35,377 bases of DNA from Candidatus Omnitrophota bacterium (GTDB taxonomy: Bacteria; Omnitrophota; Gorgyraeia; Gygaellales; Profunditerraquicolaceae): contig JAHIOW010000005.1 in NCBI GenBank assembly GCA_018895075.1, forward strand, positions 1 to 35,377, written 5' to 3'. The notes beneath the pieces are model-generated. The model saw only the letters and a program-made list of their open reading frames with translations, did no database searches and was not told the origin of the DNA. The translations under genes and the position numbers were made by a program. Below are positions 3,607-20,109 of the stretch, piece by piece. The number at the start of each line of letters is the position of its first letter. Within the stretch, counting starts at the first letter, position 1.

Positions 3607-4522
3607 GGCTCATATCGATTGATTTTAACGAGTGGGTTAAATCACCGATGGAAATCATCTCTACGCCGCTAGCGGCAATCTTTCTCACGTTTTTTAAAGT
3701 TACCCTGCCTGATACTTCTAATTTGGGCGTTAGGTTACCTCTAATCTTAACCGCTTTTTTTATATTTTTAATACTCATATTATCCAGCATAATTATATCC
3801 GGTTTTAGTTTCAAGACTTCTTTAAGTTCTTTTAAACTCTTCACTTCTATTTCTACCTTGACATTTTTTTTATTCTTAATTCTCTTAAAAAATTCTTTTA
3901 ATCTGACAACTGACAACTCCTGCATGCCGCCCGCCTGCCGGCGAGGCAGGGCAGGCATGGGACAACTGATAACTTTAAAATGATTATCCTTAATCAGCAA
4001 CATCTCATCCAATCTAAACCTATGATTATACCCCCCGCCTACCCTTACTGCATACTTTTCTAATTCCCTTAGGCCGGGAATAGTCTTACGGGTATCCATA
4101 ATCTTTACCCCGTTAGAAAATCCTTTCTTTATTTTCTTACCACTTTTTCTAACGGGGTTTACCATATAGGGCTCTACCCTATCTACATATTTCTTTGTCT
4201 TGGTGGCAATACCAGAAAGAAAACTTAAGAAGTTAAGGGCTACCCTCTCTGCAATTAATATACTCTGTGCCTTTCCGAAGAGCCGGGCGATAACCTTTCC
4301 CTTTTTTACTAACCTACCGTCTTGAACCTGAGGTTTGAATTTTATGTTTTTATCCTGGGCTTTAAATACCCGGCGCGCTATATCCAGGCCACAAACCAAA
4401 CAATCCTCTTTGGCTAATAGAATCGCCTTTGCGTGTCTATCTTTAGGGATAATTGATGTGCTGGTAATATCCCCCTTACCAATATCCTCTTTTAACGCCA
4501 CCCTTATAATATCTTTTATCAT
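3593..4522 (-). CDS. nadC: nicotinate-nucleotide pyrophosphorylase (quinolinate phosphoribosyltransferase)
   Basis: EDIGKGDITS, ERVALNFLSFLSGIAT, MDTRKTIPGLRELEKYAVRVGGGYNHRFRLDEMLLIKDNH; carries two repeat-derived in-frame insertions. Confidence 0.95.
   Translation of the reverse strand: MIKDIIRVALKEDIGKGDITSTSIIPKDRHAKAILLAKEDCLVCGLDIARRVFKAQDKNIKFKPQVQDGRLVKKGKVIARLFGKAQSILIAERVALNFLSFLSGIATKTKKYVDRVEPYMVNPVRKSGKKIKKGFSNGVKIMDTRKTIPGLRELEKYAVRVGGGYNHRFRLDEMLLIKDNHFKVISCPMPALPRRQAGGMQELSVVRLKEFFKRIKNKKNVKVEIEVKSLKELKEVLKLKPDIIMLDNMSIKNIKKAVKIRGNLTPKLEVSGRVTLKNVRKIAASGVEMISIGDLTHSLKSIDMSLEFI
3923..3959. repeat. GC-rich palindromic element inserted in nadC
   Basis: catgccgcccgcctgccggcgaggcagggcaggcatg; encodes MPALPRRQAGGM. 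Confidence 0.8.
4107..4158. repeat. inverted repeat inserted in nadC
   Basis: 14-bp perfect arms accccgttagaaaa (4107..4120) / ttttctaacggggt (4145..4158); encodes NPVRKSGKKIKKGFSNGV. Confidence 0.9.
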
Positions 4523-4550: not shown

Positions 4551-7355
4551 TTATGAGCAATGCAATTCATCAAGCAATTTTTCTAATCTCTTGATTCTAT
4601 CTTCTAATTCTTTCTTTTCGTTTTTAATATTCTCTATCACCTCGGCAGGCGCATTTTTAATGAAAGCGGGGTTCTCTAAAGTTTTCTGTTTGGATTCTCT
4701 GCGGATTAGCTCTTCAGATATTTTCTTCTTTATCTTAACCTGCTCCTTTGATACCTCAATGATGCCGCTAAAATGCAGGTATATATCTGTATCTTTGGTT
4801 ATATCGCTGATGGTAGCCGTTGGCCTGTTATTAGCATCCAAAATTTTTAAATCCTGAAGCCGGGTTAATTTTATAACCAGGCTTCTGTTACTTTCGAGCA
4901 ATTGCCTGTCTATTTTAGCATGCGGGTAGATAGAGACTAAAATTTCCTGTTCGGGCTTAATCTCAATCTCGGTGCGTAAATTCCTTATTGCTTTAATAAC
5001 CGCAAACAGCGATTCCATCTGCTTTTCTATTTTCTTATCAACCATTTGCTCTTGTATATGCGGCCAGGGCTGAACCATTATACTGGTATTCTGATATTCT
5101 GATATTCCGGTATCCTGATTTAGCCTCTGCCAAATCTCTTCGGTTATAAAAGGCATAAAGGGATGTAACGCTCTTAGCGATTTCTCCAAAACCTTATACA
5201 TAACTATCTGAGTATTCCTGTTCTCTGTGCTCTGTTTTCTGTTGACTAGAGCTGGCTTAGCCAGCTCTAAATACCAATCGCAGAATTCATGCCAGAAGAA
5301 CCCGTATAATATACCTGCTGCTTCATTAAACCGGTAAGTATCTAGTGCCTTATTTACTTTCTTTAGGGCAGAATAAAATCTGCTCAATATCCAGCGGTTC
5401 GTCATATCCAAATCTTCTTTTTTAAAGAATTGGCATAAATCTAATTCCTTACAATGGACTGTCCCCGGAGGGGACTGTCCCTTGAGAAGAGATGGCTCTA
5501 AATTCATTAAAATAAATCTTGAAGCATTCCAGATTTTGTTAGCGAAGTTTCTGCCCTGCTGGAATTTCTCTTTAGATAAAAATATGTCCTGGCCTCCTGT
5601 GGCTATGGATATCAGGCTAAAACGCAATGCGTCTGCGCCGTAATCATTTATAATCTCCAAAGGGTCTATGACGTTGCCCAGTGATTTAGACATCTTTTTA
5701 CCGGAAATGTCGCGTACCGTCCCATGGATATAGACATCCCCAAAGGGTATATCTTTCATGAACTCTAATCCGGCCATAATCATCCGCGCCACCCAGAAAA
5801 AGATTATTTCCGGCGCCGTTACCAGGACCGAGGTAGGATAAAAATATTTCAGTTCCTCGCAAGGGACTGTTCCCGACCTATCCCGAGCGAAGTCAATGGA
5901 AGGGGACTGTCCCTTGACAAATGTGGCAAATGGCCACAACCAGGAGGAAAACCAGGTATCCAGTACATCCTCGTCTTGTTTAAGATTTGAGGACTCGCAC
6001 CTTCTGCATGCCTTTGGCTCCTCTGTGCTGGCAAAGGCCTCTTTCCGGCAATCCAGGCAATACCATATCGGTATACGGTGACCCCACCAGATCTGCCTGG
6101 ATATACACCAATCCTGGATGTTCTCCATCCAGTTTAGATATACCTTGGTCCAACGTTTAGGATAGAACTTAATCTTGCCTTTTTTTACCGCTTCAATTGC
6201 CGGTTTTGCCAGGGATTTCATTCGCACAAACCATTGACGTGAAAGATAAGGCTCAATCAAAGTATGACAACGATAACAATGCCCTGCCGATAATTGGTGA
6301 GGCTGGACTTTCTCAAGCAAGCCTTTCTCTTTTAGGTCTTCTAGGATAACCTCTCTAGCTTCAAACCTGTCCATACCTCGGTAATCACCTGCGTTTTCAT
6401 TCAGACGGCCGTCGGCAAGCATAATATTTATAAATTCTAATTTGTGTTTCTTGCCTAATATATAATCATTGGGGTCATGCGCAGGGGTTACCTTCACCGC
6501 GCCAGTTCCAAACTCCATATCTACCATACTATCAGCAATTACTTTTATTTCCCTATTGATTAGAGGTAAAATCAAAACCTTGCCAATAAATTTTTTATAG
6601 CGCTTATCTTTAGGGTTGACTGCCACCGCGGTATCGCCTAACATCGTCTCGGGTCGGGTTGTTGCAACCACAACGTAGGGGACAGTCCCCGACTTGTCCT
6701 GAGCGAAGTCAATGGAGGGGGACTGTCCCCTAAGAGGATATCTTATATAATATAAATTCCCCTGGAGCTCGCTATGCGGCGCCTCCTCATCAGAGAGCGC
6801 AGTCTGACACCTGGGGCACCAGTTTATAACCTTATCATCCTGATAGATTAAACCTTTATTCCAAAGAGCAACAAAAACGCTTCTCACTGCCTTTGAATAC
6901 TCCTCATCCATGGTAAATCTGGCCCGCGGCCAATCACAGGAAGCGCCTAATTTTTTCAGCTGGTGTATGATAGTAGAGCCGTATTGCTCTTTCCACTGCC
7001 ATACCCTCTCAAGAAATTTTTCCCTTCCTAAATCCTGGCGCTTAAGGCCATCTTTAGCGATTTCCTTCTCCACTACATTTTGCGTGGCGATACCGGCATG
7101 GTCTGTGCCCGGCATCCAAAGCGATTCTTCGCCTTTCATTCTATGGTAGCGTATCAGGACATCCTGAATAGTATTATTCAGGGCATGGCCCATATGCAGG
7201 ATTCCGGTTATATTAGGAGGAGGTATAACTACGCAGAAAGGTTTTTTAGCAGGATTGGATTTTGCGGAAAATAAATTGTTCTCTTCCCAGGACTTATACC
7301 ATTTATCTTCGGTTTCCTTGGGATTATAACGACTGGGGATTTCATTCATACTCAC
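4551..7355 (-). CDS. valS: valyl-tRNA synthetase
   Basis: PPPNITGILHMGHALNNTIQD (HIGH), GKKMSKSLGNVIDP (KMSKS), ATTRPETMLGD editing domain, C-terminal coiled coil; three repeat-derived in-frame insertions. Confidence 0.97.
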   Translation of the reverse strand: MSMNEIPSRYNPKETEDKWYKSWEENNLFSAKSNPAKKPFCVVIPPPNITGILHMGHALNNTIQDVLIRYHRMKGEESLWMPGTDHAGIATQNVVEKEIAKDGLKRQDLGREKFLERVWQWKEQYGSTIIHQLKKLGASCDWPRARFTMDEEYSKAVRSVFVALWNKGLIYQDDKVINWCPRCQTALSDEEAPHSELQGNLYYIRYPLRGQSPSIDFAQDKSGTVPYVVVATTRPETMLGDTAVAVNPKDKRYKKFIGKVLILPLINREIKVIADSMVDMEFGTGAVKVTPAHDPNDYILGKKHKLEFINIMLADGRLNENAGDYRGMDRFEAREVILEDLKEKGLLEKVQPHQLSAGHCYRCHTLIEPYLSRQWFVRMKSLAKPAIEAVKKGKIKFYPKRWTKVYLNWMENIQDWCISRQIWWGHRIPIWYCLDCRKEAFASTEEPKACRRCESSNLKQDEDVLDTWFSSWLWPFATFVKGQSPSIDFARDRSGTVPCEELKYFYPTSVLVTAPEIIFFWVARMIMAGLEFMKDIPFGDVYIHGTVRDISGKKMSKSLGNVIDPLEIINDYGADALRFSLISIATGGQDIFLSKEKFQQGRNFANKIWNASRFILMNLEPSLLKGQSPPGTVHCKELDLCQFFKKEDLDMTNRWILSRFYSALKKVNKALDTYRFNEAAGILYGFFWHEFCDWYLELAKPALVNRKQSTENRNTQIVMYKVLEKSLRALHPFMPFITEEIWQRLNQDTGISEYQNTSIMVQPWPHIQEQMVDKKIEKQMESLFAVIKAIRNLRTEIEIKPEQEILVSIYPHAKIDRQLLESNRSLVIKLTRLQDLKILDANNRPTATISDITKDTDIYLHFSGIIEVSKEQVKIKKKISEELIRRESKQKTLENPAFIKNAPAEVIENIKNEKKELEDRIKRLEKLLDELHCS
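5456..5483. repeat. GGGACAGTCCC-family short palindromic element in valS, copy A3
   Basis: ggactgtccccggaggggactgtccctt; encodes GQSPPGTV, core deleted. Confidence 0.85.
5861..5915. repeat. GGGACAGTCCC-family palindromic element in valS, copy A2
   Basis: aagggactgttcccgacctatcccgagcgaagtcaatggaaggggactgtccctt; encodes GQSPSIDFARDRSGTVP. Confidence 0.92.
6678..6730. repeat. GGGACAGTCCC-family palindromic element in valS, copy A1
   Basis: 13-bp perfect arms ggggacagtcccc/ggggactgtcccc around cgacttgtcctgagcgaagtcaatggag; encodes GQSPSIDFAQDKSGTVP. Confidence 0.92.
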
Positions 7356-19029: not shown

Positions 19030-19064
19030 GCTTTAGTGCCACCATAATTTTCCTTGTCGGAAAA
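19030..19064. repeat. 35-bp direct repeat, copy 1
   Basis: gctttagtgccaccataattttccttgtcggaaaa, identical to 19115..19149. Confidence 0.95.
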
Positions 19065-19114
19065 GAGCAGGTATGCACTCCGCTCGCTGTTTTGCTTGTC
19101 GCAAAACTGCGCTC

Positions 19115-19149
19115 GCTTTAGTGCCACCATAATTTTCCTTGTCGGAAAA
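19115..19149. repeat. 35-bp direct repeat, copy 2
   Basis: Identical to 19030..19064; this copy lies inside the hairpin that includes the tRNA-Tyr 3' end. Confidence 0.95.
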
Positions 19150-19158
19150 TTATGGTGG
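19124..19158 (-). repeat. 15-bp perfect inverted repeat (hairpin) overlapping the tRNA-Tyr 3' end
   Basis: ccaccataattttcc-ttgtc-ggaaaattatggtgg. Confidence 0.9.
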
Positions 19159-19445
19159 GCAGGAGAGGATTCGAACCTCTGAAGGACAAGTCCGCCAGAT
19201 TTCAAGTGCCCTCAAGTTACCTTAAGGCTTGGACTATCTCATCACCTTAGTTTTTAACTGTAGGTGGTGGGCGCTTAGTCTCTGCACCTTCCCGCCACAA
19301 AACTCTGGCGGGCTTGGCTCAGGATTGCCCTTGACTCATTCATGCCAAGGGTTTCCCTGAATTCACCCACTTTTCCATCTTGTCTTTCGACAGGACGCTG
19401 CGTTTTTCCACAGTCTGGTGCGATTGGCCACTCCGCCACCTGCCC
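19153..19445 (-). tRNA. tRNA-Tyr(GTA) interrupted by a group I intron; exons 19410..19445 and 19153..19202 (CCA encoded)
   Basis: Joined exons GGGCAGGTGGCGGAGTGGCCAATCGCACCAGACTGT|AAATCTGGCGGACTTGTCCTTCAGAGGTTCGAATCCTCTCCTGCCCACCA: class II cloverleaf with long variable arm, loop CTGTAAA, discriminator A. Confidence 0.92.
19203..19409 (-). other. group I intron (IC3-like), ~207 nt, no internal ORF
   Basis: Starts after U and ends in G; P1 CUGU/GCAG with U.G at the splice site; P4-like AATTCAGGGAAACC; Q-like AATCCTGAGCCAAGCC; R GTGCAGAGACTA; S GATAGTCC; P2 GTC-GAAA-GAC; P9 GCCTTAAG-GTAA-CTTGAGGGC. Confidence 0.92.
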
Positions 19446-20028
19446 AATTTATATATTCGTCTATCCAGTTTTTAATCAGTTCGAGCAAACGTTTATCATT
19501 ATAACGGACATGAATTAAACCATAAGGTAATTTCCTATTGCTCAAATTTGAATTACCTTCTCTTATATACGGTTTAGTAAATTGACATAAAGGAACTTTG
19601 GTTATATTATGCCAGTACGCTTTTGATTCTTCTATATCCTGAAAAGAGTAACCATAAAGATAAATCTTCAATCTCTCTTCACATATTCCACAAACTTCTC
19701 TTAAGAATTTTAAAAATATTTTTATTATTTTTGGATTGCTGTTAGCAAAGTCTACAGTACTACCTATCAAAGTCCCTTCTGCCCAATAAAGCATAATACC
19801 AGCAATTTTTAATTTCTCTTCAATAATAGATAAATTAGACTTTATCTCAAACTGTGGTTTTATTTTATAATAGTTATACCCTGCCTCTGAACGGTCTCTA
19901 CGATTAATATTATATCTCTTCATAAGATTATATACTGTCCAGAAGGAAACGTTTAATTTTTTAGCAACCTCTTCTACAGTATATTTGTTATCCTTATAAA
20001 ATGTTTCAATTTGAGTTTTTTCGATCAT
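19363..20028 (-). CDS. HTH + LAGLIDADG-like homing-endonuclease-family protein overlapping split tRNA-Tyr
   Basis: N-terminal HTH (YTVEEVAKKLNVSFWTVYNLMKRYNI) followed by IAGIMLYWAEGTLIGSTVDFANSNPKIIKIFLKFLREVCGI...YGLIHVRYNDKRLLELIKNWI. Start ATG at 20028; the ORF-track TTG start lies in tRNA-Thr. Confidence 0.7.
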   Translation of the reverse strand: MIEKTQIETFYKDNKYTVEEVAKKLNVSFWTVYNLMKRYNINRRDRSEAGYNYYKIKPQFEIKSNLSIIEEKLKIAGIMLYWAEGTLIGSTVDFANSNPKIIKIFLKFLREVCGICEERLKIYLYGYSFQDIEESKAYWHNITKVPLCQFTKPYIREGNSNLSNRKLPYGLIHVRYNDKRLLELIKNWIDEYINWAGGGVANRTRLWKNAASCRKTRWKSG

Positions 20029-20034
20029 TTTAAA

Positions 20035-20109
20035 TGGAGCCGGCGAGAGGAATCGAACCCCCAACCTAGGGTTTACAAAACCCTTGCTCTACCATTGAGC
20101 CACGCCGGC
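20035..20109 (-). tRNA. tRNA-Thr(TGT), CCA encoded
   Basis: RC GCCGGCGTGGCTCAATGGTAGAGCAAGGGTTTTGTAAACCCTAGGTTGGGGGTTCGATTCCTCTCGCCGGCTCCA; loop TTTGTAA. Confidence 0.95.

Follow-up and report, generated by a model that had tools for sequence, protein, structure and literature searches.

An ORF between two tRNA genes in an Omnitrophota genome

We analyzed 35,377 nucleotides of a contig from a Candidatus Omnitrophota bacterium (JAHIOW010000005.1; this whole stretch is referred to as the window), in which an ORF of 221 aa, running from ATG to TGA (19363-20028, reverse strand), lies between two tRNA genes on the same strand. Its upstream neighbor is tRNA-Thr(TGT) (20035-20109, reverse strand), whose encoded CCA ends at 20035, six nt (TTTAAA) before the ATG at 20028. 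Downstream is tRNA-Tyr(GTA), c[19153,19445], which was missed by ordinary ARAGORN and detected by ARAGORN in intron mode: its 5′ exon (19410-19445, reverse strand) ends at U35 of the anticodon, a 207-nt intron (19203-19409, reverse strand; ARAGORN i(37,207)) lies between anticodon bases 35 and 36, and the 3′ exon, which includes the CCA, occupies 19153-19202 (reverse strand). The intron is a group I intron by its Rfam score (RF00028, 102.2 bits against a gathering score of 50), the U at its 5′ splice site and its terminal G (splice sites CTGT/GG...CTTG/AAA), and since it matches RF00028 from end to end (model positions 1-253), no ORF is nested in its loops. The intron-split gene is the only tRNA-Tyr found in the assembly (88% complete).

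The conserved protein comprises 194 aa (19447-20028, reverse strand; alignment of 42 homologs). Residue 194 ends at 19447, and a tryptophan codon straddles the tRNA-Tyr boundary by one base; the frame then runs through the exon (AGGGVANRTRL) and into the first part of the intron (WKNAASCRKTRWKSG) until the TGA at 19363-19365, so that this tail (19363-19446, reverse strand) passes P1 and P2 and reaches the 5′ strand of P3 in the Rfam alignment. The original prediction, made from the letters of the window, had described the start beside the tRNA-Thr CCA, the end of the conserved part at the tRNA-Tyr 5′ end, the frame crossing P1 and P2, and a gene not nested in the intron, all of which agree with our annotation. 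The same arrangement of ORF and intron-bearing tRNA-Tyr occurs at 16 other Omnitrophota loci; these loci, and the purifying selection on the family proteins (median dN/dS of 0.13 in 27 independent pairs), show that the arrangement in the window is more than chance.

A Shine-Dalgarno site is absent before the ORF start (window positions 20026-20035, six nt after the tRNA-Thr CCA), and 3′ processing of tRNA-Thr would leave the ORF mRNA nearly leaderless. Just downstream of tRNA-Tyr (19030-19158) there is a 35-nt perfect direct repeat (19030-19064 and 19115-19149) and a 15-nt perfect inverted repeat, and the CCACCA end of tRNA-Tyr is included in the repeats of this region.

Domains and predicted fold of the protein

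Residues 1-58 (19855-20028, reverse strand) have weak matches to HTH_23 and HTH_28, and the AlphaFold2 model of the 194-aa protein (pLDDT 94.3) places helices at residues 4-13, 18-25, and 29-38 of this N-terminal helix-turn-helix. PHROGs families of HTH-containing endonucleases are matched across the family, and the window protein matches them through its N-terminus. In the model, the HTH is followed over residues 59-194 (19447-19854, reverse strand) by the order helix-strand-strand-helix-strand-(insert)-strand-helix, which is the alpha-beta-beta-alpha-beta-beta-alpha order of the LAGLIDADG core save for the insert before strand 4. Y81, E84, G85, W139, and G170 are invariant in the 42-relative alignment, and E84 and G85 are each kept in 236 of 239 relatives. 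The catalytic acid of LAGLIDADG proteins stands at the end of the first helix. E84 (codon 19777-19779, reverse strand), the candidate catalytic acid in the motif IMLYWAEGT, is placed at the end of the first LAGLIDADG-like helix in our model, so that the family has the conserved acidic residue and Gly at the predicted end of helix 1 that would be expected of this class.

The original prediction had called the ORF LAGLIDADG-like, and this reading stands on the motif, the predicted topology and the weak fold matches, but not on profiles, since no Pfam LAGLIDADG profile is matched even at E=10. In the Pfam search proposed with that prediction, the window protein matched no nuclease and only HTH families, below cut-offs; no LAGLIDADG family is among the 25 most-matched families for 42 family members; and the lack of matches to Pfam or NCBIfam nuclease families counts against a homing endonuclease. 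A profile comparison (hhalign) with the genome's own LAGLIDADG_3 proteins was weak (probability 30%, 25 columns). Foldseek searches of the PDB gave OmpA-like proteins as the best matches, with low TM; behind them were LAGLIDADG inteins (for example, TliVMA, with probability 0.97-0.99, E of about 0.1, and TM 0.33-0.45), and none of the matches to homing endonuclease structures had E<0.001. Among viral structure models, several top matches are annotated as endonucleases, some of them LAGLIDADG. Together, the motif, topology and weak fold matches, on which the class name rests, suggest a LAGLIDADG-like protein with a divergent fold.

A family of ORFs beside tRNA genes

The window ORF is a member of what appears to be an undescribed family, found in uncultured bacteria of the Omnitrophota and Patescibacteria; full-text searches, which cover subscription papers and preprints poorly, found no description of the family or of its tRNA pattern. 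Relatives were collected by protein-similarity searches only, and none was picked for its proximity to a tRNA. Matches with E<=0.001 were found in 95 of 386 sampled Omnitrophota genomes and 103 of 337 sampled Patescibacteria genomes (a minority match the HTH region only), and 242 distinct proteins have the C-terminal domain, a few of which may be partial copies of one locus. The same profile also found proteins of about 290 aa with HTH and LAGLIDADG_3 domains (L004, which is G000:C49, and L196-L202).

A tRNA gene lies within about 120 nt of 228 of the 242 homologs, and 28 anticodons are represented. Most homologs (196) are directly 5′ of a tRNA on the same strand, with a median of 13 nt from the end of the domain to the tRNA and 175 of them within 40 nt; a further 17 are on the 3′ side, 14 face a tRNA of the opposite strand tail-to-tail (for the Ala(ggc) group, Rfam confirmed that the tRNA is reversed), and one has another placement. 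The remaining homologs are five at contig ends and nine with no tRNA within the limit, of which four are near a group I intron. Among the other long ORFs of these tRNA-rich 8-kb loci, which served as a control, a tRNA comes directly next in 10.6% and is present at either end in 26%. Some split tRNAs are mislabeled by ARAGORN: those called Ser in L005, Phe in L057, and Ser in L176 are Tyr by position, and L015, counted as a 3′-side ORF, is also 5′ of an intron-bearing Tyr that ARAGORN missed.

The protein clades are faithful to one tRNA. In a FastTree phylogeny of 239 proteins, tRNA labels (20 labels with at least three rows) change 25 times, against a minimum of 19 and a mean of 153.9 after shuffling, and none of 200 shuffles was as low, although close kin in the tree inflate a statistic of this kind. 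Val(tac), Gln, Gly(tcc), Val(gac), Met, and Pro(cgg) each form a single well-supported group, and Tyr, Thr(ggt), Gly(gcc), Lys, Gln, and Arg(tct) are found in both phyla. A homing gene bound to its target should keep its tRNA identity across phyla in this way. The genes are optional and patchy, lie outside introns and inteins (no family copy was seen inside an intron), and stand beside the tRNA gene that is their presumed target, as free-standing homing genes do. No relatives were found in plasmids or phages, or in IMG/VR searched with a single 7-residue pattern.

Decayed copies of the ORF, with in-frame stops or truncation, remain beside tRNAs at L062, L094, and L048; such broken copies are expected from a cycle of gain, decay and loss.

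Overlap of the ORF with the tRNA

The original prediction had proposed that RNase P cleavage at the tRNA 5′ end strips the ORF of its stop codon, so that translation of the ORF and production of the tRNA exclude each other in a built-in feedback. This is mechanically plausible for the window copy, and the stop lies inside or beyond the tRNA in 122 other homologs as well; but of the 196 5′-side frames, 123 enter the tRNA and 73 stop before it, and the 31 homologs on the 3′ side (17) or tail-to-tail (14) have messages that RNase P could not cut. The real frame and the other two stop before the tRNA equally often (37, 38, and 34%, respectively), which means that entry into the tRNA is what proximity gives. 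Where frames do enter, the tail inside the tRNA is shorter in the real frame (median 22 nt) than in the other two (44 nt; p=7e-8, kinship ignored), and 34 of the 123 stop at tRNA base 10, apparently because the tRNA's own U8-A9-G10 is read as TAG; if anything, early termination is favored. The Tyr group of the window is in the minority with long tails, and the frame in which the ORFs of L005 and L007 enter the tRNA differs from that of the window ORF. Since tail lengths and frames vary, the read-through tail is not a conserved part of the protein, and the comparison of homolog C-termini suggested with the prediction, which shows entering tails to be shorter than in the other two frames, lends no support to a regulatory link. 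The overlap in the window thus looks incidental, and we regard the feedback as very improbable.

Group I introns beside the family

The homing side of the original prediction, for which homologs away from both introns and tRNAs would have been adverse, fared better: as described above, nearly all homologs adjoin tRNAs, and group I introns are near them above expectation. Of 281 tRNAs within 100 nt of an ORF, 34 have an intron, whereas the remaining tRNAs of these loci have one in 6 of 241 cases (Fisher p=2e-5, kinship ignored). Introns lie within 350 nt of 45 of the 242 ORFs, in both phyla and in several orientations, and are found in tRNAs called Tyr, Phe, Thr, Arg, Asn, Ile, Leu, Ser, and Asp.

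Within the window's taxonomic family, we recovered the syntenic Thr-Tyr-Gly locus through a neighboring gene. The Tyr intron is present in 7 of the 20 ORF-free syntenic loci and absent in 13, whereas all 8 genomes with a Tyr-linked ORF carry it (p=0.0025); thus, in this taxonomic family the intron occurs without the ORF, but the ORF was not seen without the Tyr intron. This co-occurrence (8/8 vs. 7/20) is the basis for proposing that the intron may block cleavage by the putative nuclease. Outside this taxonomic family, Tyr-linked ORFs beside intronless tRNAs are common, and most ORF-linked tRNAs have no detected intron, which counts against the homing reading as far as immunity is concerned. 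The window and the 16 other Omnitrophota Tyr loci have the anatomy of collaborative homing, namely a free nuclease-like gene beside an ORF-less intron.

At least one group I intron is found in 206 of 386 Omnitrophota genomes and 166 of 337 Patescibacteria genomes, and the tRNA introns seen there lie in the anticodon loops of many isoacceptors. Separately, intronless ORF-linked tRNA-Tyr genes often have T31-A39 where A31-T39 is usual. We considered this swap as a form of resistance but regard it as no more than a weak lead: 37 of 337 Patescibacteria genomes (about a tenth) match the pattern anyway, and only two of six ORF-linked Tyr genes in a random sample of Patescibacteria have it. No diagnostic base was obvious in other isoacceptors.

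Footprints of broken tRNA genes

We searched for the 5′ half of the partner tRNA upstream of 5′-side ORFs and for its 3′ half downstream of 3′-side ORFs (exact matches alone were too insensitive). The expected half, scoring 13 or more, was found at 8 loci, against 0.45 from shuffled flanks, and the wrong half at none; most halves break at bases 28-42, that is, in the anticodon arm. For example, bases 1-36 of a tRNA-Thr stand just before the ORF in L028 and are identical to the resident copy at 34 of 36 positions; L154 has a Gly(TCC) 5′ half that stops at the anticodon; L111, L212, L087, and L124 have 5′ halves ending at 28-36; and L075 and L038 have 3′ halves after the ORF. With a half-tRNA profile, halves were found in 35 of 242 neighborhoods, a few of which are intact tRNAs that ARAGORN overlooked or that a contig end truncates, against one match in three-fold shuffled sequence. 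The window copy itself shows no such footprint.

Where the acceptor part of a fossil half survives, the intact tRNA next to the ORF pairs with itself in that part and differs there from the fossil; in these cases it therefore seems to have replaced the old gene, not to have arisen by its rejoining. The fossil halves suggest that the family breaks into tRNA genes at the anticodon, bringing a replacement tRNA. However, tRNA halves are also found near tRNAs in loci without a family ORF, which counts against the homing reading, and four loci have an old 5′ half, a complete new tRNA of the same identity and the old 3′ half with no ORF inside: L007 (Thr, 3717-3969), L011 (Gly, 4902-5122), L027 (Thr, 4581-4732), and L219 (Val, 1058-1405, split in the anticodon loop; all in ORF-strand coordinates). 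These ORF-free insertions and halves indicate that anticodon-loop breaks with tRNA replacement are wider than the family ORF, and we infer that the putative nucleases of the family cause some of them.

A putative tRNA-specific homing endonuclease

We consider it likely that the ORF is a free-standing, tRNA-specific putative homing endonuclease, with a divergent LAGLIDADG-like fold and an HTH, aimed at the anticodon arm; the nuclease activity, exact target and immunity of the family proteins are what we infer from the patterns above. The protein would bind the DNA of a single tRNA gene (tRNA-Tyr in the window) and cut it within the anticodon arm; once the break is repaired, the ORF would be joined to an intact tRNA at one of its ends, which is where we observe it. 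With the ORF lying directly against the tRNA, its frame often continues into the tRNA sequence and terminates at the stop that happens to occur in it. The resident copy would be spared because the target is no longer present in its tRNA gene: in the lineage of the window, the shield would be the group I intron that splits the anticodon loop between bases 35 and 36, and in other lineages a replacement tRNA divergent in sequence may serve. As a guess, the single motif of the protein would suit a homodimer that recognizes the near-palindromic anticodon stem-loop in its DNA form. More tentatively, the family could be a natural cleave-and-rescue drive on essential tRNA genes, in which the resident, probably single-copy tRNA gene would be cut in the anticodon loop, the surviving cassette would bring a complete divergent tRNA of the same identity, or an intron-shielded one, that restores function and resists cutting, and the broken halves of the old tRNA would persist as fossils around the new one.

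Other functions would account for part of these observations. A WhiA-like protein, with an HTH and a degenerate LAGLIDADG domain, could be a transcription or processing factor for the neighboring tRNA, so that adjacency reflects autoregulation of the tRNA operon; the HTH, the strong purifying selection, the placement in tRNA operons and the tRNA-faithful clades all fit such a regulator. We nevertheless think it unlikely, given that the acidic E84 is conserved in 236 of 239 proteins, that the gene is patchy (about a quarter of genomes), that it lies on either side of the tRNA and also in opposite orientation, and that a regulator has no place for the intron enrichment or the tRNA-half footprints. 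Some LAGLIDADG proteins are maturases, and with a group I intron near 45 of 242 loci the protein could act on RNA, as a tRNA-intron maturase or a tRNA-specific ribonuclease; since most partner tRNAs have no detected intron, we rejected an intron maturase, and with the Tyr intron kept in 7 of 20 ORF-free loci of the window's taxonomic family, an RNA substrate in general seems quite improbable. tRNA ends are used by many mobile elements, and other insertions do occur in tRNA genes here, as would suit a mobile ORF that uses them as safe landing sites while its target is unrelated to the tRNA; yet the fidelity of each clade to one isoacceptor across phyla is far above chance, which makes a passive association of this kind most improbable.

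The putative homing endonuclease resembles several known systems. F-CphI of cyanophage S-PM2 takes part in collaborative homing at psbA (PMC6083498): its gene, too, is free-standing and adjoins a gene in which the target is interrupted by a group I intron without an ORF, and intron and nuclease help each other spread. However, F-CphI carries an Endo VII motif, its substrate is a protein gene of a phage, and its role has been proven biochemically, whereas the present family is LAGLIDADG-like, sits at many cellular tRNA genes that are mostly intronless, and is known here from sequence. SegB of T-even phages is, like the window ORF, a free-standing endonuclease-type gene in a tRNA cluster (between tRNA-Arg and tRNA-Ile), and the cuts of T4 SegB were mapped inside tRNA genes (PMC2988022, PMC13096335); it differs in being a phage GIY-YIG enzyme of one locus with a broad motif, and the parts of these reports available to us describe neither clade-by-clade tRNA fidelity nor tRNA-half footprints. 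I-ShaI and other single-motif LAGLIDADG enzymes of CPR rRNA insertions (PMC11270868) share with our family the host group, the small single-motif LAGLIDADG(-like) protein and the link to group I introns, but they are nested in rRNA insertions and match Pfam LAGLIDADG_1-3, whereas the window family lies outside introns, at tRNA genes, with no such match; the word tRNA is absent from the main text of that paper. Finally, the HTH + LAGLIDADG_3 proteins of the same genomes (L004 and L196-L202) have a related HTH domain but, unlike the window family, have two motifs and a clear Pfam LAGLIDADG_3 match, and no tRNA was found beside L004.

If the homing reading is true, many reduced bacterial genomes would carry selfish nucleases each tied to one tRNA identity, forming a natural series of related enzymes with targets in the anticodon arm. 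Collaborative homing would then have an example on bacterial chromosomes, and cleave-and-rescue gene drives would possibly have a natural precedent. The abundance of group I introns in the tRNA anticodon loops of both phyla would also find a reason (the introns as shields), as would the orphan tRNA halves (as scars).

Other insertions in tRNA genes

Insertions with a left end of roughly TCCCGCC/CCCGCC start right after a broken 5′ half in L008, L011, L176, L181, L191, and L192 (tRNA-Gly), and the same type of left end is also found at L027, L298, and L307. Several of these insertions follow base 35 of tRNA-Gly(TCC), and they look like a small tRNA-targeting mobile repeat. In a relative, L169 (2531-3009), the region between tRNA-Thr and tRNA-Tyr contains a 5′ fragment of tRNA-Tyr, repeats and a short GIY-YIG-like ORF, so a second type of nuclease may use the spot occupied by the window ORF.
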